From IMG/VR virus record IMGVR_UViG_3300045136_000373, positions 1 through 51,689 of that record: 51,689 bases of DNA; one strand, written 5' to 3'. The stretch is from a virus. The notes beneath the pieces were generated by a model that did no database searches, was not told where the DNA came from, and was given only the letters and a program-made list of their open reading frames with translations. How positions within the stretch are numbered: the stretch's first letter is position 1; each line of letters starts with the position of its first letter. Positions 2,574 to 49,171 of this stretch are shown here, one piece after another. A program made the position numbers and the translations under genes.

Positions 2574-3839
2574 ATGTCATCTATTCTATCAAGAATCAGA
2601 GCCACAGATTCGTTACCACAATGGGCCGAAAAGATCAACCTGTCTTTTGATTTTATTGAAAATTATGCACAATCTTCTGGTAATATTGTCAATTCAATAA
2701 CACCAGCAAATACACAATTGATTGTTTGGAATACAACAATTTCTTCATGGTCTAATGCTACACTAATTGGTCCAATTACAATTGATCCGACATCATTTTC
2801 GTCTAACCAATTTTCTTTTAAAATCAACCCACCATTGATTTCTAATCTGAATGAATTATCAGAAAATGATTTAGATAGAGATAATGATTTTTTTATGGTG
2901 TTAGATGCATCTGCATCTGAAATCAAAAAAATCAAGCTTTCGTCACAGGTTGTAACTCCCGGTGGATCAAATACCAATGTTCAGTTCAATGATTCTGGTT
3001 CATTTGGTGGTTCTAGTGGACTAACGTTTGATAAAACAACAAATAATTTGTCAGTTTCAAATAATGTCTTAGTTGGAAATAGAATAGGTGTCAATAACTC
3101 AAATCCAACATATGCTATTGATGTTACTGGAAGTGTCAATACTACAACAGGTTATAGAATCAATGGTACACAGGTTCTTACATCAACAACATTAGGTTCC
3201 ACGGTTACAACTTCATCTTTGACTTCTCTTGGTGTTTTAACTTCACTTTCAGTTTCTGGAACTGCAAATTTCAATAGCTCATTGACAGCAAATGCAGGAA
3301 TTCTAACAACTTCTATTACAATCAATAACTTAGACGGAACAAGTCAACCATTTCTTTATTTAAATACAAGTAAACAAGTTTTGGCCGCTCGTGGTGTTGT
3401 AGATGATGATTATGGTTTATATTTTCATTCATCTTTTGGAATTTATAATCGCGGGGATTTTACTATTTGGTCTCGTTTACAATCAAATAGCTCATATGGT
3501 TTGATTTTTGCAAAACAAGGAAATACTACCAGTAAAACTGGCCAAATTAATGCTCAAACGAAAATTGGTGGTATTTATGGTACTGGATGGGATGAAACTT
3601 CAAACTTTAGAGCAATTGCTGGAATTGAAATCTATTCAAATGGAACAGTTACATCAACTAGCAGTCCCGGATTTATTCTATTTGCTACAACACCAGCAGG
3701 ATCAATAAATATGGTAGAAAGAGTAAGAATTTCTAGTAATGGTTATGTCGGAATCAGAAATACATTAGGCCCAAGTCTTATAGATTCAACAACTTATAGA
3801 TTAGTCATCCCTGTTGGTACTGATAGATATGCAACATAA
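2574..3839 (+). CDS. Tail fibre-like structural protein
   Basis: 421 residues. N-terminal segment (1-60) begins MSSILSRIRATDSLPQWAEK. A middle motif, NTNVQFNDSGSFGGSSGLTF near residue 140, is the linker often seen between domains of phage fibres, and a close copy ([20 protein letters not shown]) occurs in the collagen-like fibre at 47789. The C-terminal half is Ser/Thr/Asn-rich with a GIGxxxP-like beta repeat (VGNRIGVNNSNPTYAIDV). No enzyme signature. Preceded by a late-type promoter and followed with an 11-nt overlap by the GIY-YIG gene. Likely a distal fibre or baseplate spike subunit. Confidence 0.7.
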   Translation: MSSILSRIRATDSLPQWAEKINLSFDFIENYAQSSGNIVNSITPANTQLIVWNTTISSWSNATLIGPITIDPTSFSSNQFSFKINPPLISNLNELSENDLDRDNDFFMVLDASASEIKKIKLSSQVVTPGGSNTNVQFNDSGSFGGSSGLTFDKTTNNLSVSNNVLVGNRIGVNNSNPTYAIDVTGSVNTTTGYRINGTQVLTSTTLGSTVTTSSLTSLGVLTSLSVSGTANFNSSLTANAGILTTSITINNLDGTSQPFLYLNTSKQVLAARGVVDDDYGLYFHSSFGIYNRGDFTIWSRLQSNSSYGLIFAKQGNTTSKTGQINAQTKIGGIYGTGWDETSNFRAIAGIEIYSNGTVTSTSSPGFILFATTPAGSINMVERVRISSNGYVGIRNTLGPSLIDSTTYRLVIPVGTDRYAT

Positions 3840-4305
3840 TATATATGAAAATCCTTGGCTCTTTAATGGAAAACCATTTTTACCTGAAGATATCAAAAAT
3901 TTTTATGGTTTTGTTTACAAAATTACAAATAAATTGACAGGAAAAGCATATATTGGGCGAAAATATTTTTACAAATCTATAAAGAAAAAAGGTAAACGCA
4001 GAATTTATATTGAATCAGATTGGAAAGATTATTATTCATCTTGCGACGAATTGAAACAAGACGTAAATAAATTTGGAAAAGAAAATTTTTTGCGTGAAAT
4101 AATTTCTTTGCATGAAACCAAGGGAGACACAAATTATTGGGAAAATTATGAATTATTCCGAAATAACGTTTTAGAAGCTGTTGATTTTAAAGGAGAAAAA
4201 TTATACTATAATAACAATATCATGAATCGTTATTTCATCAGAAAAAACAAACCAGTAAGATTGCTTTCGGAGACGTATTATGGCATTCAAACCATCAACT
4301 CTTGA
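3829..4305 (+). CDS. GIY-YIG family endonuclease (homing-like)
   Basis: 158 residues from the ATG at 3829; a longer in-frame start at 3814 is possible. The N-terminal motif GFVYKITNKLTGKAYIGRKY contains the two-strand GIY-YIG core with a following Arg/Lys, and EFLRE-like and NYWE elements further on fit the catalytic Glu. Family knowledge: single-domain phage GIY-YIG nucleases of this type often sit as free-standing mobile genes between structural genes. It overlaps the fibre gene by 11 nt and the tail-tube gene by 26 nt, so it is tightly wedged in. It could instead have a DNA-processing role in the phage. Confidence 0.75.
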   Translation: MQHNIYENPWLFNGKPFLPEDIKNFYGFVYKITNKLTGKAYIGRKYFYKSIKKKGKRRIYIESDWKDYYSSCDELKQDVNKFGKENFLREIISLHETKGDTNYWENYELFRNNVLEAVDFKGEKLYYNNNIMNRYFIRKNKPVRLLSETYYGIQTINS

Positions 4306-4804
4306 TTTTTCAGCACAATCTCTTTTCAAAATGGTGTTTACTAGAATTCCTAATGTTGAATACTATACATTTTCTGTAACAATTCCGGGTATTACTTTAG
4401 GTGAGGCTACACAACCAACTCCGACATTAGATATCCGACTTCCCGGAGATAAACTGGTATTTGATCCATTTGTTTTGACTTTTTTGGTGCAAGAAGATCT
4501 TCAGAATTATGTTGAAATTTATAATTGGTTAATTGGTTTAGGCAAACCAGTTTCTACAGATCAACATAAAGCATTTGTCAGAAAAGGATTTCCAGAAAGA
4601 ACTGAAAAGCAAAACAAATATTCAGATGCAAGTCTTTTCGTACTTACAAACAAAAACAACCCCACGATTGAGGTTGTTTTTCGTGATATTTACCCTATTT
4701 CTTTGTCTACAATTACCTTTGATAGTTCAGTTGGAGATTATGCTGTCTTAACAGCAGATGTTACATTTAACTATCTATATTACGAATTTAGGAAGAAATC
4801 TTAG
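4280..4804 (+). CDS. Tail tube-type protein (gp19 superfamily)
   Basis: 174 residues with GGAG 7 nt before the ATG. The pattern FSVTIPGITLGEATQPTPTL, then LPGDKLVFDPFVLTFLVQED and YNWL, is the layout of T4 gp19-like tube proteins: an N-terminal beta sheet, then a D-x-(F/W)-x-LTF-x-V-x-ED strand pair and a helix. It could be the major tube protein or a related baseplate tube initiator. Its last 17 nt overlap the 3' end of the convergent radical SAM gene. Confidence 0.7.
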   Translation: MAFKPSTLDFSAQSLFKMVFTRIPNVEYYTFSVTIPGITLGEATQPTPTLDIRLPGDKLVFDPFVLTFLVQEDLQNYVEIYNWLIGLGKPVSTDQHKAFVRKGFPERTEKQNKYSDASLFVLTNKNNPTIEVVFRDIYPISLSTITFDSSVGDYAVLTADVTFNYLYYEFRKKS

Positions 4805-5972
4805 TTTTGATTTGAACTAAGACATTTTTTTGAGCTTCTTGAATGAAAGCTTGTCTTCCACTAGCCCAAATTTTATACATTTCTTCTTCTAATTTCTTCA
4901 GAAGAATAGACTTAGACAATGGTAATACTCCTTTTTCAAGATAATCTTTTTCAAAATACTCAAACAAATTATAGTACATTTGACACAAATTTGTTTTATT
5001 GCGCCAATCATATTTGATGCCAGTTCCGGGACATTGACCTTTACAAAAAATAAAAAATCTACAATCTTTACAACCGCCATATTCTTTTGGAGTATTGTAA
5101 AGAGCTAATTGTCTTTCATAACCATGTTGTTCGGCTTTGATTTGTTCAAATCCATCTTTATTTGTGCGATTGCAATTTACCCGTTCTCCTTGTCCGTTGA
5201 TGCCGCGAACAGCATCTGTTGAGTAATAATCGCAAGAATGAAACGTACAAGTAACATTCTCATTTCCAATTAAAATGTTTTTGATATCATTGAAAAGATC
5301 AAATTTGATGTATTTTAAAGTTTTCTCAAATTCGGCCATCTCCAACATTACACGAACATTTTCTTCAGGAGTTAGTGAAAATTTATCGTCAATTTCGTCA
5401 TAATCTACTTGAAGTGTATGTAATCTGGCTCCTTGAATTGCTTTTCTTTCATCATAATCTTTAATCCAAGCTTTTAGTTTAGGCAATTTTTCTGGAATAG
5501 CATTTATTTTATGTAACGTAATAATCAAACTGACGCTCACTCCATTTTTTACACATTTTTCAATATTTTCTAGAGTCTTTTTTGTTGCTAATCTGGTTTT
5601 TTCCAAACTTCCAGCCCAACGTGCATCATTCAACTCGTCTGGCCCGTCCATTGAGATTCCAACATGAACTTTGTATTTTTTGAATAATTCAATGTGTTTA
5701 TCAGTAATTAGAACTCCATTACTTTGAATACCATTTTTACCATAAGCCTTATAACCAAAATTCCATAATTTTTCCAAAGTGTCAATATCTACAAGGAGAG
5801 GTTCACCACCAAAAATAGAAAATTCGCCACCTTCTTTTTTCAGACCTTCAATCATTTTATTAACATCATAATCAAAAACACCATGATTTCCTGCATCACG
5901 AACTGGGTGTTCATAACAATAAGTACAAGAAAGATTACAAGTTACTCCAATTGGGGTGACTTCAATGCTCAT
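4788..5972 (-). CDS. Radical SAM/SPASM maturase-like enzyme
   Basis: 394 residues. The [4Fe-4S]-SAM motif is C12-x3-C16-x2-C19 (CNLSCTYCYEH), followed by GGEP at 55-58, the SAM-contact motif. The C-terminus carries a complete SPASM signature: C247-x14-G262-x4-C267, then C301-x2-C304-x5-C310-x3-C314 and C330. Family knowledge: SPASM enzymes of this type (anSME, PqqE, ribosomal-peptide and triceptide maturases) bind two auxiliary clusters and modify peptides or proteins. It is last in a minus-strand cassette behind the H-x-D repeat protein and a methyltransferase fusion, overlapping the upstream gene by 4 nt (ATGA). Inference: it modifies the H-x-D protein. An anaerobic sulfatase-maturase role is less likely because no sulfatase gene is visible. 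Confidence 0.93.
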   Translation of the reverse strand: MSIEVTPIGVTCNLSCTYCYEHPVRDAGNHGVFDYDVNKMIEGLKKEGGEFSIFGGEPLLVDIDTLEKLWNFGYKAYGKNGIQSNGVLITDKHIELFKKYKVHVGISMDGPDELNDARWAGSLEKTRLATKKTLENIEKCVKNGVSVSLIITLHKINAIPEKLPKLKAWIKDYDERKAIQGARLHTLQVDYDEIDDKFSLTPEENVRVMLEMAEFEKTLKYIKFDLFNDIKNILIGNENVTCTFHSCDYYSTDAVRGINGQGERVNCNRTNKDGFEQIKAEQHGYERQLALYNTPKEYGGCKDCRFFIFCKGQCPGTGIKYDWRNKTNLCQMYYNLFEYFEKDYLEKGVLPLSKSILLKKLEEEMYKIWASGRQAFIQEAQKNVLVQIKTKISS

Positions 5973-6601
5973 ACCGGAAACATCTCCTCTCCGCTCTTAT
6001 ATTTTTCTTCTACGAAATTATACCAAGATCTAAAATATTGGCCCGTTTTTGCTTGTTCTGAAAATGTAGCTGCGATATATTGTTCGCTAGAAGTTAACTC
6101 ACGATCAATAAATGGATATTCTTTTGATAAATTGTGCCATCCATTATCACAATAATTTACAATATCTTTGTAATAACAATAACCATCAGCAAAGAAAAAT
6201 ACTTCTCCCTTTTCAATATTTTCATACATTGATAATGGAGGATTTTGCGAAAAAATTGTCGTTGGATGAATATATAGTACAAATTGTTGTCCTTTTTTGA
6301 CAATATATTTTTCAAGTAAATACTTATAATTGTCTGATACTTCATTGACAACACTTTTTACTTCCGTTGGCGTGACAAAATATAATGGGTAATCTCGTTC
6401 ATCTTTTTTTGCCATATTATAAATTTTAAACAATAATTGTTCTGATGAAAATGGATTAATAATATCATTTTCAATACCTACATACATATTAACATCAAAA
6501 TTCCGTTTGAAACGGCTGATATAATGCCAAATCAAAACCGATTTATCTAATGTAAGATCGTTGACAATAGTCAAAATATTCAATGGTTTTCTCGTATTCA
6601 T
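5969..6601 (-). CDS. Unknown protein in the radical SAM cassette
   Basis: 210 residues, starting 5 nt after the methyltransferase fusion and overlapping the radical SAM gene by 4 nt, so almost certainly co-translated with both. The fold looks alpha/beta: an N-terminal hydrophobic strand (NILTIVNDLT), a central strand FVLYIHPTTIF, then FFFADGYCYY. The arrangement faintly recalls GT-A glycosyltransferases, but the Asp-x-Asp metal site is absent (YIHP in its place). I do not recognise the family. Co-occurrence makes it a likely partner in modifying the H-x-D protein. Confidence 0.75.
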   Translation of the reverse strand: MNTRKPLNILTIVNDLTLDKSVLIWHYISRFKRNFDVNMYVGIENDIINPFSSEQLLFKIYNMAKKDERDYPLYFVTPTEVKSVVNEVSDNYKYLLEKYIVKKGQQFVLYIHPTTIFSQNPPLSMYENIEKGEVFFFADGYCYYKDIVNYCDNGWHNLSKEYPFIDRELTSSEQYIAATFSEQAKTGQYFRSWYNFVEEKYKSGEEMFPV

Positions 6602-6605
6602 ATTA

Positions 6606-8060
6606 TTAGACTCCTTGCAGTACTAATAGATTTTCCTTCTTATTTGTTACAATTTTTGTCAAATATCCATAATATGCTACAACATTTATGCCTTCTCGCT
6701 TATCCATCATTGTAAATTTAAATCCAGCTTTATTCAATAATTTTACCATTTTATCACTTTTTAGATCTTGAATTCTATCGGCATAAGCATAAAAAATAAT
6801 ACGTTGATTTTCATTAAACTTTTTCAAAAAATTCAATGCTGTAAATTCATCTACCTCAAAAAACCGACCCGGCATAATGATACTCAAAGATGGTTCTTCA
6901 ACATAGATATTGGTTTCAAATATATTTCTTGTAACATATTCAGCTTGCGGAAAATTGATTTTTCCGTGTTTAGCACGTTCTTCATCAATTTCAATTCCAA
7001 TATATCTACAATTTAATTTTAAAGATTCTTCAATTCTACGAAGCAATTCTCCATTACCACAGCCATAATCTACTATTGTTTTATAATCCATTCTGTTTTC
7101 TTTTACTAACGAAAGAATTACATCATGTGAATGTTTCATAGCTTCAAAAGAAAAAAACCCATTATCATTCCAAAGATTTTCTAATAAAATTGACCTTTTA
7201 AAAGAATTTGATTCAGTAATTGGAATTTTTGCTTTATTTACATATGGAAATTTATTTCCAGATACACCTTCTTTTGGATATGAATATCCTTGCTTTTGTA
7301 CAACAACTAAATCGGCTGTGGCATCTGTTCTAGTAGAAATTTTCAAAATTGGAGTTTTAATTTCTGCAATTCCATGTAAGGCACTCCATTCCACGGGCCA
7401 TGAAAGCATTTCTTCTAACCAATCCATTTCTTCGTTATATCCCAATTCACGCCCAAATTCTATATTATTTCTAGCAATTCTGTAAGTATTTTCACAGGAA
7501 AAACTGCATGGAAGATGACTTACCGCACGAACGCCAAGCCAACGAAGTAAAATATTACATTCCTTTGGACCTTCAGTTCCATTCAGACTCATTGGATATG
7601 TAGTATCTACAAAATTTTCTTTGACCCAATATTTTTCAAAAAATTCAATACAACAAGAAGGATAATCTAATAATTCTCCAATTTTTGTATTATTATTAGT
7701 TTTCCATGCTTCTTTCCAATTATCAACATATTGTGGTTGTGTATATGCTACTCTATACGAATTTTTTTCTTGCAGGAGAAAATTTCCATGTGTTGAGTTT
7801 GAATAACTATTACCAAGATATGTTTCCTCAAGTATTACTAATTCTACATTATTCGGTAATCTTTTTATTTCATATTCTACATTTTCTTTTTTTAAAAACG
7901 TTAAATTAGATTTTTTACGACCAGTAAATACACTTTTTCTTTCTATATCAAGAAAAGCACTAGAAATTCTATTGATTCTGGATTGCCAAACATCTCTTGC
8001 TTCTGCGGATGCCCAAATAATACGAGTCCAATCAGGCAAAACAAAATTCAATCTTTTCAT
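6606..8060 (-). CDS. DUF483-like domain fused to a class I SAM methyltransferase
   Basis: 484 residues. Residues about 125-240 carry DYPSCCIEFFE (Cys136-Cys137) and LPCSFSCENT (Cys185 and Cys189), a Cys pattern I associate with the DUF483 family. The C-terminal part, from about 325, is a class I methyltransferase: motif I VDYGCGNGELL (330-340) and acidic motif II GIEIDEERA (355-363). It sits between the H-x-D protein (15 nt away) and the unknown gene (4 nt away). The Cys set could bind a metal or the repeat substrate. The substrate is inferred to be the H-x-D protein; a cap-like or DNA target cannot be ruled out. Confidence 0.8.
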   Translation of the reverse strand: MKRLNFVLPDWTRIIWASAEARDVWQSRINRISSAFLDIERKSVFTGRKKSNLTFLKKENVEYEIKRLPNNVELVILEETYLGNSYSNSTHGNFLLQEKNSYRVAYTQPQYVDNWKEAWKTNNNTKIGELLDYPSCCIEFFEKYWVKENFVDTTYPMSLNGTEGPKECNILLRWLGVRAVSHLPCSFSCENTYRIARNNIEFGRELGYNEEMDWLEEMLSWPVEWSALHGIAEIKTPILKISTRTDATADLVVVQKQGYSYPKEGVSGNKFPYVNKAKIPITESNSFKRSILLENLWNDNGFFSFEAMKHSHDVILSLVKENRMDYKTIVDYGCGNGELLRRIEESLKLNCRYIGIEIDEERAKHGKINFPQAEYVTRNIFETNIYVEEPSLSIIMPGRFFEVDEFTALNFLKKFNENQRIIFYAYADRIQDLKSDKMVKLLNKAGFKFTMMDKREGINVVAYYGYLTKIVTNKKENLLVLQGV

Positions 8061-8075
8061 ATATTCTCCCTTTTA

Positions 8076-9428
8076 TCAAACATTTTTAACAAAAACTGGC
8101 TGATCATTGTGTAATGTATCGGCGTGATCTGAGTGAATATCTTCATGTGTATCTATATGTTGAATATCATTATGGGTATATTGCCCAGTATCTCCATGAT
8201 CATTATGATCAGAATGTGCAACATCAGAATACCAATCAAGATGATCCGTATGATTTGAATATGAATCACTGTGATCTATATGATCATAATGAATATTACA
8301 ACCATCAGTATGATCTGAGTGTGGTACATCATTATATATTGGCATATCGCAATGATCAGAATGATCTGAATGATAATTAACATCAGTATGTGTGGTGCAA
8401 CCATCAGTATGATCTGAGTGTGGTACATCATTATATATTGGCATATCGCAATGATCAGAATGATCTGAATGATAATTAACATCAGTATGTGTGGTGCAAC
8501 CATCAGTATGATCTACATATGGATTGTCCGAATGATCTGAATAGTCTGAATGCATATCACAATAATCTTCATGATAAGCACTTCCATCAATATGAATATA
8601 AGAATCATTATGCCAACCGGGATCTCCTACAAATGTTACATCAAAATGCATTAAACATTCATCTGCATGATCATTATGTGAATCTATATAATCATTATGA
8701 ATTGGCATATCGCAATGATCTTGATGAGAAATAATATCATTATAATCTGAATGTACAGTACAACCATCTGTATGATTTATTAGTTGAACATCATCATGAA
8801 TTGGCATATCGCAATGATCTTGATGGGAAATAATATCATTATAATCTGAATGTACAGTACAACCATCTGTATGATTTATTAGTTGAACATCATTATGAAT
8901 TGGCATATCGCAATGATCAGAATGCTGAGTTGTAGTATTATCGTAATGTGTATCAGAATGTGGATTTGATACATCTCCATGACTATCTTCATGAAGCATG
9001 TCACTATGCGGATTTGTATAATCAATATGTGGATAAATTCCATCACTGTGATCAGAATGAAGAACATCAGAATGAGAATCTGTATGTGTTGGCGCGTCGG
9101 TATGATCTTGATGAGCAGTATCTATATGATATTGAACTTTTTGATTGTTAGGAGTAATCCCTTTTAATGAAGTTCCTTCAACCCACAATGAACCAATACT
9201 ATTTGAATTTCCTACTCCAGTAGCATTTACTGTAAATGGAATTACTCTATGTACATTTGTTTCTGAAATATAATTCAAATATCCATCAGATGTCATCCAA
9301 ATACTACCGGAAGTTGCACTTGGAACTGAAGCGACAAAATTTCCTTGATAACGGTAAACCTCTGTTGAGGTCGGACAATAACAGAGAAATTCTCCTTCAA
9401 CCCAAATGCTTCCCGGTAGTGCTGGCAT
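8076..9428 (-). CDS. His-x-Asp repeat protein with virion-like N-terminus, probable modification substrate
   Basis: 450 residues in two parts. Residues 1-100 hold three copies of a beta motif starting GSIW or GSLW (near 6, 41 and 79), like a fibre or head-decoration domain. Residues about 101-444 are H-x-D triplets every 3-8 residues (HSD, HTD, HCD, HND), with about one residue in three being His or Asp. A 33-residue unit is repeated, each copy bearing HCD and DGC, so Cys is regular too. No signal peptide. It has its own late-type promoter and precedes the methyltransferase fusion, the unknown protein and the radical SAM enzyme. It could be a modified structural protein or a metal-binding protein. 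The reading frame is secure: the opposite-strand frames over this region are shorter and fragmentary. Confidence 0.9.
   Translation of the reverse strand: MPALPGSIWVEGEFLCYCPTSTEVYRYQGNFVASVPSATSGSIWMTSDGYLNYISETNVHRVIPFTVNATGVGNSNSIGSLWVEGTSLKGITPNNQKVQYHIDTAHQDHTDAPTHTDSHSDVLHSDHSDGIYPHIDYTNPHSDMLHEDSHGDVSNPHSDTHYDNTTTQHSDHCDMPIHNDVQLINHTDGCTVHSDYNDIISHQDHCDMPIHDDVQLINHTDGCTVHSDYNDIISHQDHCDMPIHNDYIDSHNDHADECLMHFDVTFVGDPGWHNDSYIHIDGSAYHEDYCDMHSDYSDHSDNPYVDHTDGCTTHTDVNYHSDHSDHCDMPIYNDVPHSDHTDGCTTHTDVNYHSDHSDHCDMPIYNDVPHSDHTDGCNIHYDHIDHSDSYSNHTDHLDWYSDVAHSDHNDHGDTGQYTHNDIQHIDTHEDIHSDHADTLHNDQPVFVKNV
8301..8498 (-). repeat. Two tandem 99-bp repeats in the H-x-D gene
   Basis: Copies at 8301-8399 and 8400-8498, essentially identical, with the first bases of a third copy beginning at 8499 before it diverges. 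Each encodes a 33-residue unit starting HCDMPIYNDVPHSDHTDGCT. The near-identity indicates recent duplication or ongoing homogenisation by recombination. Confidence 0.9.
8704..8901 (-). repeat. Second pair of 99-bp repeats in the H-x-D gene
   Basis: Copies start at 8704 and 8803, with a third partial copy at 8902. They encode the sister unit HCDMPIHNDVQLINHTDGCT plus 13 residues. The period is again exactly 99 bp, so both repeat blocks share one ancestral 33-residue module. Confidence 0.9.
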
Positions 9429-20354: not shown

Positions 20355-21722
<1,368 letters not shown>

Positions 21723-41605: not shown

Positions 41606-42388
41606 ATGAGAGATACATTAGAAAATAGAATGAAACTTTACGAAGAACAATGTTCTCAAAAAATTACAAATGACTTTATTGTGGTTCGGGTTGACGGAAA
41701 GGCGTTTTCACATATATTCCGCTATTTGAACGAACAACACTTTTATTCGGAAGATGTTGTTTCGGCGATGAATCAGGCTGCATTTTATACTGCGCTTTCA
41801 GTACAAAATTGTGTGGCTTATTATCCTCAATCCGATGAGTGTTCTTTTCTTTTGCAGGCAAAAAAAGAAAATAATACACAACACTGGTTTAATGGAAAAG
41901 TCAATAAAATCAATTCTGTTACGGCATCTTATTTCACATATTATTTCAACAAATTTCTTCCAGAAACAGCAAAAAAATCAGAATCTTTGAATGATGTTAG
42001 TAATCTTCATGTTCCAGTATTTGATTGCCGCTGTTTCGGTCTTCCAGATGATAAGCCAGAAGAGGTACTCAATTATTTTGTGTGGAGGGTAAAAGACGCA
42101 TACCGAAACGTATTGAATCGGTTTGTGCATTTCTATCAGCCTTCATATTTGTATAGCTCCCGAAAAATTACCACAAAACAGAAAGAAATTCAGAAGTATC
42201 TTGAAATTTATGGAAAGGGAAGTTTTTTCTTTCCATTTTATCATATGGGATTTAGAATGAAAGTGGACGGGGTGTGGTTCACACAAAGACACGTCAATCC
42301 GCCCGAAAACGTTTTTGGTCAAATTCGGGCACTATTTGAAGAATATAATATCGTCAAGCTGGAAGGAGAAAAAACTAATGATTTTTGA
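41606..42388 (+). CDS. Thg1-like tRNA 3'-5' polymerase, leaderless
   Basis: 260 residues. DTLENRMKLYEEQ, then FIVVRVDGKAFSHI and QSDECSFLL (metal-binding Asp positions), CRCFGLPDDKPEEVLNYFVW and RVKDAYRN follow the Thg1 superfamily. Family knowledge: Thg1-like enzymes add nucleotides to 5' ends of tRNAs, adding G to tRNA-His or repairing 5' ends. A phage copy with RNA ligase and RlaP suggests tRNA repair after host nuclease attack. Leaderless from its own promoter. Confidence 0.9.
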   Translation: MRDTLENRMKLYEEQCSQKITNDFIVVRVDGKAFSHIFRYLNEQHFYSEDVVSAMNQAAFYTALSVQNCVAYYPQSDECSFLLQAKKENNTQHWFNGKVNKINSVTASYFTYYFNKFLPETAKKSESLNDVSNLHVPVFDCRCFGLPDDKPEEVLNYFVWRVKDAYRNVLNRFVHFYQPSYLYSSRKITTKQKEIQKYLEIYGKGSFFFPFYHMGFRMKVDGVWFTQRHVNPPENVFGQIRALFEEYNIVKLEGEKTNDF

Positions 42389-47788: not shown

Positions 47789-49171
47789 ATGCCAACAAAT
47801 CCAGAATTTTTTGCAAATGTTGATCCAGAAAATAATGAAATAGATTTGAATTTAGATATTAATGCTAACCAATTTACTATTAAAAACTTACGAAATCCAA
47901 TTGATCCGAGAGACGCTGCCACTAAAGAATATGTAGATCTTTATGGTGGGGGAGGAGTTGGTGCGTCTGGATTTGTGGGAGCAACAGGTGCAACTGGCCC
48001 GCAAGGAGCAACTGGTTTTACTGGTGCAACTGGATTTCAAGGAGCAACTGGAGAACCGGGACCACAAGGCGCAACAGGAATTCAAGGTCAAATGGGTTTA
48101 CCCGGCCCGCAAGGATTTCAAGGTGCTACCGGATTTCAAGGAGCAACAGGACTGCAAGGAGCAACTGGATTTCAGGGTGCCACAGGATTTACTGGTGCCA
48201 CTGGTGCTACTGGAGTACAAGGATTTCAAGGTGCTACGGGTCTGACAGGTGCAACTGGATTGCAAGGCCTACAGGGCGCAACTGGCTTGCAGGGAGCAAC
48301 TGGTCTAACTGGTGCCACAGGCTCAGGCGCAACAGGTGCAACCGGATTGCAAGGACCGCAAGGCGCAACTGGATTGACTGGTGCCACAGGTTTGCAGGGG
48401 GCAACTGGGTTTCAGGGAGCAACTGGGCCTCCCGGAACAGCAAATCCCGGAGGATTAAATACACAAGTTCAATTTAATCAAAATGGATCGCTAGGAGGAT
48501 CTTCTAATTTTGTTTATGATTATACAAATAACAGAGTTGGAATTGGTATATCTTCTCCACAGAATATTCTTGATGTTTTATCTACATCTTCTCAGAATAT
48601 AGCAATGACAGTAAATTCAGCAACAACAACAGATAGAGCTGGATTGTTACTGAGACATTATGGAACAAATGGCGGTTCAACTCCAAACAATTCAAGAGTT
48701 GGAGTAATTAGTTTTATGGCAATGCCTACAACAGGATCAACGAATTTTGCTTCTGCGGCAATTGATTCATATATTGAAACTAATGGAACATCAAATGCTC
48801 CCGGAGATCTAAGATTTTATACAAATACAGGATCAGGTGTAACAGAAAAACTAAGAATCACAGCAAATGGCCAAATCCTTTCCCGTGAAGGGATGTTTGC
48901 ATATGAATATACGACAGTTTCTTCAAATACAACATTAGTTTCAAATAGAGCGTATTTGGTTACAGCAAATAATTTGACATTGACTCTTCCAGCATCTCCA
49001 AGCAATTTAGATACAATTTGTATTATTGGTACAGGAATTACAGGAACGGTAATAAATAGAAATGGAAATAATATTATGGGTTTAGCTGAAAATATGACTA
49101 TTGATATTTCAAATTTTTTCCTCAAATTAACATATTTTAGTTCAGGAACAAATTGGAGGATTACACCATGA
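47789..49171 (+). CDS. Collagen-like tail fibre
   Basis: 460 residues. An N-terminal cap ([30 protein letters not shown]) leads into Gly-x-y repeats from about 58 to 222 (GATGATG, GFQGATG). The connector [20 protein letters not shown] is shared with the fibre at 2574, and a C-terminal domain ends [18 protein letters not shown]. The start AATKEYVD is frequent in T4-like short fibres. Two glycosyltransferases precede it and two Gly-rich tips follow. The 25-kb-distant fibre at 20355 has the same type of shaft. Confidence 0.9.

Follow-up and report, generated by a model that had tools for sequence, protein, structure and literature searches.

An H-x-D repeat protein of tailed viruses as the probable substrate of a co-encoded radical SAM/SPASM enzyme family

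The viral DNA analysed here (IMG/VR record IMGVR_UViG_3300045136_000373, positions 1 to 51,689; the whole 51,689-nucleotide stretch is referred to as the window) is a contig with 34% GC, T4-like as judged by its genes for DNA polymerase, helicase and the tail tube, and carries a cassette in which a protein of His-x-Asp (H-x-D) triplets is encoded beside a radical S-adenosylmethionine (radical SAM) enzyme with a SPASM domain. The link between this enzyme family and the triplet motif, proposed in a first-pass annotation of the window, is near certain: arrays and enzymes co-occurred when arrays were sought without regard to the enzyme, enzymes of the family carry H-x-D tails of their own, and the triplets follow an aromatic-x-(D/N) grammar like that of triceptide substrates. 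By analogy with triceptides, the enzyme is considered likely (probability about 0.7) to form staples, each between a residue i and the beta-carbon of i+2, along a tail-fibre-associated protein. The wider proposal, namely that tailed phages and a provirus-like plasmid of a haloarchaeon share a widespread viral system that makes a virion-displayed poly-cyclophane rod with tens to about a hundred staples per chain, is given slightly better than even odds.

For the enzyme-blind analysis, the viral collection was scanned for DNA encoding four HxD triplets in an aperiodic pattern; the complete scan gave 92 stretches, 83 of which were taken as genuine arrays by a simple filter that passed three short artefacts (L408, L422, L475) and failed three stretches that look genuine (L413, L470, L476). 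An enzyme of the family lay within the fetched stretch for 67 of the 83 arrays, at a median distance of 6 base pairs, and elsewhere in the full record for 4 further arrays, which gives 71 of about 83. For the arrays that lacked an enzyme, the records are classified as virus fragments, and in roughly half the array sits at the contig end; one 46 kb record with an internal array (G018) had no enzyme in the record, which may be incomplete. H-x-D proteins without a SPASM gene in related phages, the observation named beforehand as speaking against the link, were sought in this way, and the link stands, the enzyme-less arrays being in virus fragments. HxD-rich open reading frames outside radical SAM loci that were inspected among the matches listed for a scan with three tandem HxD triplets proved to be collagen-like or low-complexity DNA read out of frame, with a near-fixed middle residue (HKD, HLD) and were discarded.

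Loci were also collected with an alignment of the enzyme, giving 80 loci from viral contigs (IMG/VR) and about 43 family loci from bacterial and archaeal genomes; family loci scored above 140 bits and were separated by a score gap from other SPASM enzymes, which begin at 88 bits. In this genome-neighbourhood check, which the annotation had suggested, an H-x-D protein (defined by at least seven triplets) was present near the enzyme at most viral or phage loci (82 of 88), at 26 of the 43 genomic ones and at 0 of 37 loci of unrelated SPASM enzymes below the score gap; the viral counts are not independent because several loci are repeat views of one contig or near-identical contigs. Of the 78 viral cases scored, 75 had the H-x-D gene upstream of the radical SAM gene and on its strand.

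In the window, all four open reading frames of the cassette were recovered at their assigned coordinates on the minus strand, and the annotated spacing of 15, 4 and -4 nucleotides agreed with these coordinates. The features were as follows.

8076..9428, minus strand: H-x-D repeat protein of 450 residues, the proposed substrate, with 61 of 62 His in HxD and homologues adjacent to radical SAM genes in phages, contigs and a haloarchaeal plasmid
9132..9428, minus strand: its predicted N-terminal all-beta domain of about 99 residues (28-member alignment, AlphaFold2 model)
8103..9128, minus strand: the H-x-D array with interspersed YND, YSD, YID, YCD and YVD triplets (translation, grammar, conservation)
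6606..8060, minus strand: DUF483 domain fused to a class I SAM methyltransferase (Pfam, 40-member alignment, AlphaFold2, PDB matches)
5969..6601, minus strand: accessory protein of 210 residues, shared with the closest relatives only, with no family above cutoff
4788..5972, minus strand: radical SAM/SPASM enzyme of 394 residues, the proposed staple former (Pfam Radical_SAM, 2.6e-16)
2574..3839, plus strand: tail-fibre protein ending ..LVIPVGTDRYAT (PHROG tail fibre, 4.3e-10)

The triplet protein had been described correctly (61 H-x-D and 62 His in 450 residues), although 'giant' overstates the window copy; the word is better suited to the Thermus phage phiLo, in which proteins with 101 and 72 HxD are encoded some kilobases away on the other strand. 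All array His of the window protein lie in triplets, its lone non-triplet His sits in the N-terminal domain, and a few Y-x-D triplets accompany the H-x-D ones; exact DNA matches to HxDHxDHxD numbered 4 in the window against 0.00 expected from shuffles. The N-terminal domain contains three GSxWVEGxxLHYIDxxG repeats and is common to viral H-x-D proteins (28 aligned members, 24-39% identity). Its AlphaFold2 model (mean predicted local distance difference test score, pLDDT, 89.8) consists of strands only, and a structure search with it gave no known fold, with a best PDB match at Z 3.4, which is not meaningful, and one BFVD match.

Triplet grammar was analysed in 85 dereplicated arrays (15,557 residues), in which 2468 of 2692 His were inside HxD. 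The HxD triplets were held fixed and the remaining residues were shuffled 500 times within each array; HxN (126 against 11.6 expected), YxD (138 against 16.0), FxN (66 against 10.5), FxD (49 against 6.3) and WxD (17 against 3.9) were all in excess (0/500 shuffles each), and non-aromatic residues were depleted two positions before D. Three loci beside the same enzyme family have mainly HxN triplets (L284, 12853-13542; L301 and L307, both upstream of the radical SAM gene) and one has mainly YxD (L358). As read from the translated arrays, the motif is a strict aromatic(H/Y/F/W)-x-(D/N), which matches the triceptide rule.

Of 405 H positions in homologous pairs of arrays, 9 were replaced (by Y three times, F three times, W twice and G once), as were 9 of 405 D positions (by N eight times and V once), while X was changed at 75 of 405 and spacers at 273 of 1666, that is about 2% for H and D against 16-19%, the alignments of the more distant pairs (65%) being somewhat uncertain; synonymous changes were present in homologous arrays. 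Both ends of the motif are under purifying selection, and since the change from a His codon to an F or W codon needs more than one base change, selection for an aromatic ring is indicated. The substitution pattern rules out drift of low-complexity DNA without selected function, a reading that deserves practically no credence: apparently recent tandem duplications are seen in some arrays (MPIHNDV/MPIYNDV units in the window), but H and D are conserved where X and spacers vary and synonymous changes occur, and arrays of this type recur across many contigs, both viral and bacterial, and on an archaeal plasmid. The replacements bear equally on metal binding. His and Asp are common metal ligands and HxH motifs in phage fibre tips hold iron, so that the array could be pictured as a metal-binding rod or tail with the radical SAM and DUF483 proteins as unrelated neighbours or metal loaders; this is improbable and was rejected because H and D are replaced by F, W, Y and N, which are poor ligands or non-ligands, and not by E. 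HxE (4) and HxH (14) are nearly absent from the arrays, triplet spacing is variable (mostly 3 to 9 residues), and the arrays co-occur with a single SPASM family whose members themselves bear H-x-D tails.

The SPASM motif of the window enzyme is complete, as had been annotated (C247-x14-G262-x4-C267; C301xxC304x5C310x3C314; C330), and its cysteines, together with the radical SAM CxxxCxxC at 12/16/19, are invariant across 10 family members; the enzyme has both the radical SAM core and the seven-Cys SPASM domain of triceptide formers. The nearest NCBIfam models over ten enzymes were YhhB (2.6e-28) and AmcB (5.5e-28), followed by DynA and the anaerobic sulfatase-maturating enzyme (anSME). On sequence comparison the family is an unnamed one whose neighbours in the SPASM group are cyclophane formers (nearest models, YhhB and AmcB) and an oxidase acting on a beta-carbon (closest structure, anSME). 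In 93 distinct family enzymes the region past residue 365 contained 300 HxD, or 59.4 per 1000 residues, against 1.26 per 1000 in the enzyme core and 0.92 in the tails of 37 control SPASM enzymes. Among viral loci 74 of 88 had such a tail, and among genomic loci 6 of 43 (examples are Cumys with ..EHGDYTDHGDAPHGDHWDG and L035 with ..DHGDHTDHGDHQD); the enzymes of L281 and L283 carry 24 HxD. The records that hold these two loci (G014, G026) encode a tandem pair of family enzymes, one of them with the 24-HxD tail.

A different chemistry on the same triplets (epimerisation, hydroxylation or oxidation at the Asp/Asn beta-carbon, a C-N or C-O bond, or inter-chain links) is unlikely. The nearest solved relative is anSME (4k36/4k37, about 1e-22), which oxidises a beta-carbon without cross-linking and is also the best NCBIfam match of the window copy, and the genes here reveal the substrate rather than the product. 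However, an aromatic residue is kept at i as well as D/N at i+2, which a change to Asp only would not need, and YhhB and AmcB, the models nearest to the 10 members, are cyclophane formers. Three-residue cyclophane formation is the best supported chemistry, the likely product being deduced by analogy.

The fusion of a DUF483-like domain to a methyltransferase was borne out, DUF483 being matched above its cutoff (E 5.7e-6) and the AlphaFold2 model (pLDDT 91.3) having a class I methyltransferase fold in its C-terminal half, which gave PDB matches at Z about 15, with the methyltransferase domain filling the listed matches, and weak sequence similarity to the RiPP (ribosomally synthesised and post-translationally modified peptide) methyltransferase BamL, among others. 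Four cysteines of DUF483 (Cys136, Cys137, Cys185, Cys189) are invariant in the 40-member alignment, and because of them a metal or Fe-S site is possible. A DUF483 homologue was present at 119 of 131 family loci, and bacterial DUF483 is often fused to the radical SAM enzyme. The 210-residue protein had no significant family match (best alpha-glucosyltransferase, E 0.017, below cutoff); homologues were found in L004 and L005, and weak ones in L096, L249, L250 and L245.

The gene preceding the H-x-D gene often ends ..LVxPVGTxxWAT, like the window fibre gene, and a few of these genes match tail-fibre families. In L035 this ending and the GSVWVEG domain occur within a single protein, in L265 and L266 a laminin-G-like lectin domain is joined to the array, and in L258 a module-encoded protein matching collagen-like tail fibres carries 25 HxD. 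Bacterial arrays can end large proteins, one with tectonin/tachylectin domains (L323) and another with an apparent twin-arginine signal and membrane anchor (L324). Because of this fibre-gene adjacency and these fibre and lectin fusions, a surface, adhesive or structural role is favoured for H-x-D proteins. The annotation's 'structural protein' is supported in part by this context; its place in the virion is read from gene context, which makes a tail-associated product probable.

Other genes of the window include a SegE-like GIY-YIG endonuclease (3814-4305, plus strand, Pfam 2.1e-45), which overlaps the fibre gene at its 3' end and also the start of the tail tube gene, two more matches to collagen-like tail-fibre families (20355-21722, minus strand, and 47789-49171, plus strand), and a predicted tRNA-His guanylyltransferase (41606-42388, plus strand, phrog_4717, 1.4e-42), possibly of interest given the His-rich protein of this phage.

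The module spans many tailed bacteriophages and at least one virus-like archaeal element, and many bacteria have it as well. The Thermus phages phiMa, Cumys and phiLo have a radical SAM enzyme 46-51% identical and a DUF483 protein 30-33% identical to those of the window, and H-x-D proteins too; in phiMa and Cumys, whose growth is supported by the laboratory strain Thermus thermophilus HB8, the gene order is baseplate/fibre genes, H-x-D protein (53 and 54 HxD), radical SAM enzyme and DUF483. On a plasmid of the haloarchaeon Halomicrococcus, baseplate genes are accompanied by those for a fibre-like protein whose sequence ends VVLPVGTDRWA, a GSIWVEG protein (14 HxD, with YxD, FxD and HxN in addition), the radical SAM enzyme and a DUF483-like protein. 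Nitrospinaceae locus L325 has an rSAM-DUF483 fusion and H-x-D proteins at 3222-4013 (mainly HVD and HID triplets) and 4729-8952, and five Bradyrhizobium loci (L349, L350, L351, L352, L354) have a family radical SAM enzyme and a DUF483-like protein with no H-x-D array within 4.5 kb. For Cumys and phiMa, Kolesnik et al. 2024 (PMC11437467) suggested a role of the module in DNA modification and reported that in some cyanobacteria homologues of its radical SAM and DUF483 proteins are encoded close to deazapurine genes. This role is very improbable: that paper is silent on the repeats, the cyanobacterial L322 enzyme adjoins a protein with 13 HxD, H-x-D triplets occur on the enzymes themselves, and the viral neighbours are fibre genes.

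Several observations, besides the closeness of the window copy to anSME, weigh against cyclophane stapling of a fibre-associated protein. Every NCBIfam score for the enzyme family is far below cutoff, the window enzyme reaching 56 bits against 445 for YhhB, 62 against 425 for AmcB and 85.7 against 349.45 for anSME, so that it belongs neither to a curated cyclophane-former model nor to anSME. The window enzyme and its closest relatives have no H-x-D tail, and the window cassette and tail genes are on opposite strands. A peptidase or leader of the classical RiPP kind was not found, family searches of the cassette genes giving neither a peptidase nor an exporter, and some bacterial members (those of Bradyrhizobium and others) lack a recognisable array in the 4.5 kb around the enzyme.

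In triceptides, the enzyme links an aromatic residue at i (Trp, Phe, Tyr or His) with the beta-carbon of i+2 (Asn, Asp, Arg, Ser or Ala); YxdB couples Tyr to Asp, HaaB couples His to Ala, and the ScaB substrate is still accepted when its H is changed to Y (PMC11002830). On this model, the ribosome would make a small beta domain followed by a long aromatic-x-Asp/Asn array, mostly His-x-Asp; the radical SAM/SPASM enzyme would abstract hydrogen from the Asp/Asn beta-carbon at i+2, and this carbon would be joined to the aromatic ring at i (imidazole, phenol, phenyl or indole), giving repeated three-residue cyclophanes. The H-x-D tail of most viral enzymes probably tethers the enzyme to its substrate or mimics the substrate, and DUF483, often with a fused methyltransferase, may act as a partner that presents the substrate or modifies it further. 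The product could be a stiff, protease- and heat-resistant rod or an adhesive surface near the fibre tip.

Radical SAM cross-linking is, as far as we know, established on short peptides and cofactors and not on viral structural proteins. A literature search gave no paper linking phage tails with cyclophanes, its one match being a coliphage N4 paper with a passing citation of cyclophane enzyme work, and we know of no earlier description of covalently stapled viral tail proteins. If the proposal is true, this would be the first radical-SAM-modified virion protein known to us, and an enzyme family would act on many motifs along one long chain while carrying, and perhaps stapling, a piece of its own substrate. 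Viruses would then build densely stapled fibres inside the cell, which would bear on resistance to heat, proteases and drying and on grip of the host. A likely substrate and role would also be gained for a radical SAM family and for DUF483, neither of which matches a curated family of known function here.

Among known systems, the triceptides (XncB, OscB/GrrM, MscB/FxsB, YxdB, HaaB, YhhB) resemble the module in having a SPASM enzyme encoded beside an aromatic(i)-x-acceptor(i+2) substrate, with Trp, Phe, Tyr or His at i and Asn and Asp among the known acceptors (PMC11002830). Unlike triceptide precursors, the proposed substrates here are 200 to 1200 residues long, mostly viral and fibre-associated, with 10 to 100 triplets and His-x-Asp dominant; that of the window is no short precursor, its 450 residues including an N-terminal domain that is predicted to fold. 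No leader, peptidase or exporter was recognised beside these proteins, and a DUF483(-methyltransferase) partner and H-x-D enzyme tails are added. The module would work like a triceptide system yet falls outside the curated models and the precursor-peptide definition. The His-Xaa-Ser (HxsA-HxsD) system of Haft and Basu, reportedly predicted from genomes, also has His triplets beside SPASM enzymes. It differs in its third residue, Ser rather than D/N, and in its radical SAM pair HxsB and HxsC, where the window cassette has one radical SAM gene; the HxsB match of the enzymes here is weak (6 of 10 members, best 1.9e-12), and we know of no DUF483 link of that system. anSME is akin through the closest solved structures and the best NCBIfam match, and differs in that the neighbouring substrate candidate here is the H-x-D protein. 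The 'rSAM module' that Kolesnik et al. 2024 (PMC11437467) named in Cumys and phiMa, noting its DUF483 fusions, is the same module, made up of a radical SAM enzyme, DUF483 and a third gene without assigned function. Neither 'HxD' nor 'histidine' appears in that paper, and the H-x-D repeats, the fibre context and the enzyme tails are unreported there; the third gene encodes the H-x-D protein.

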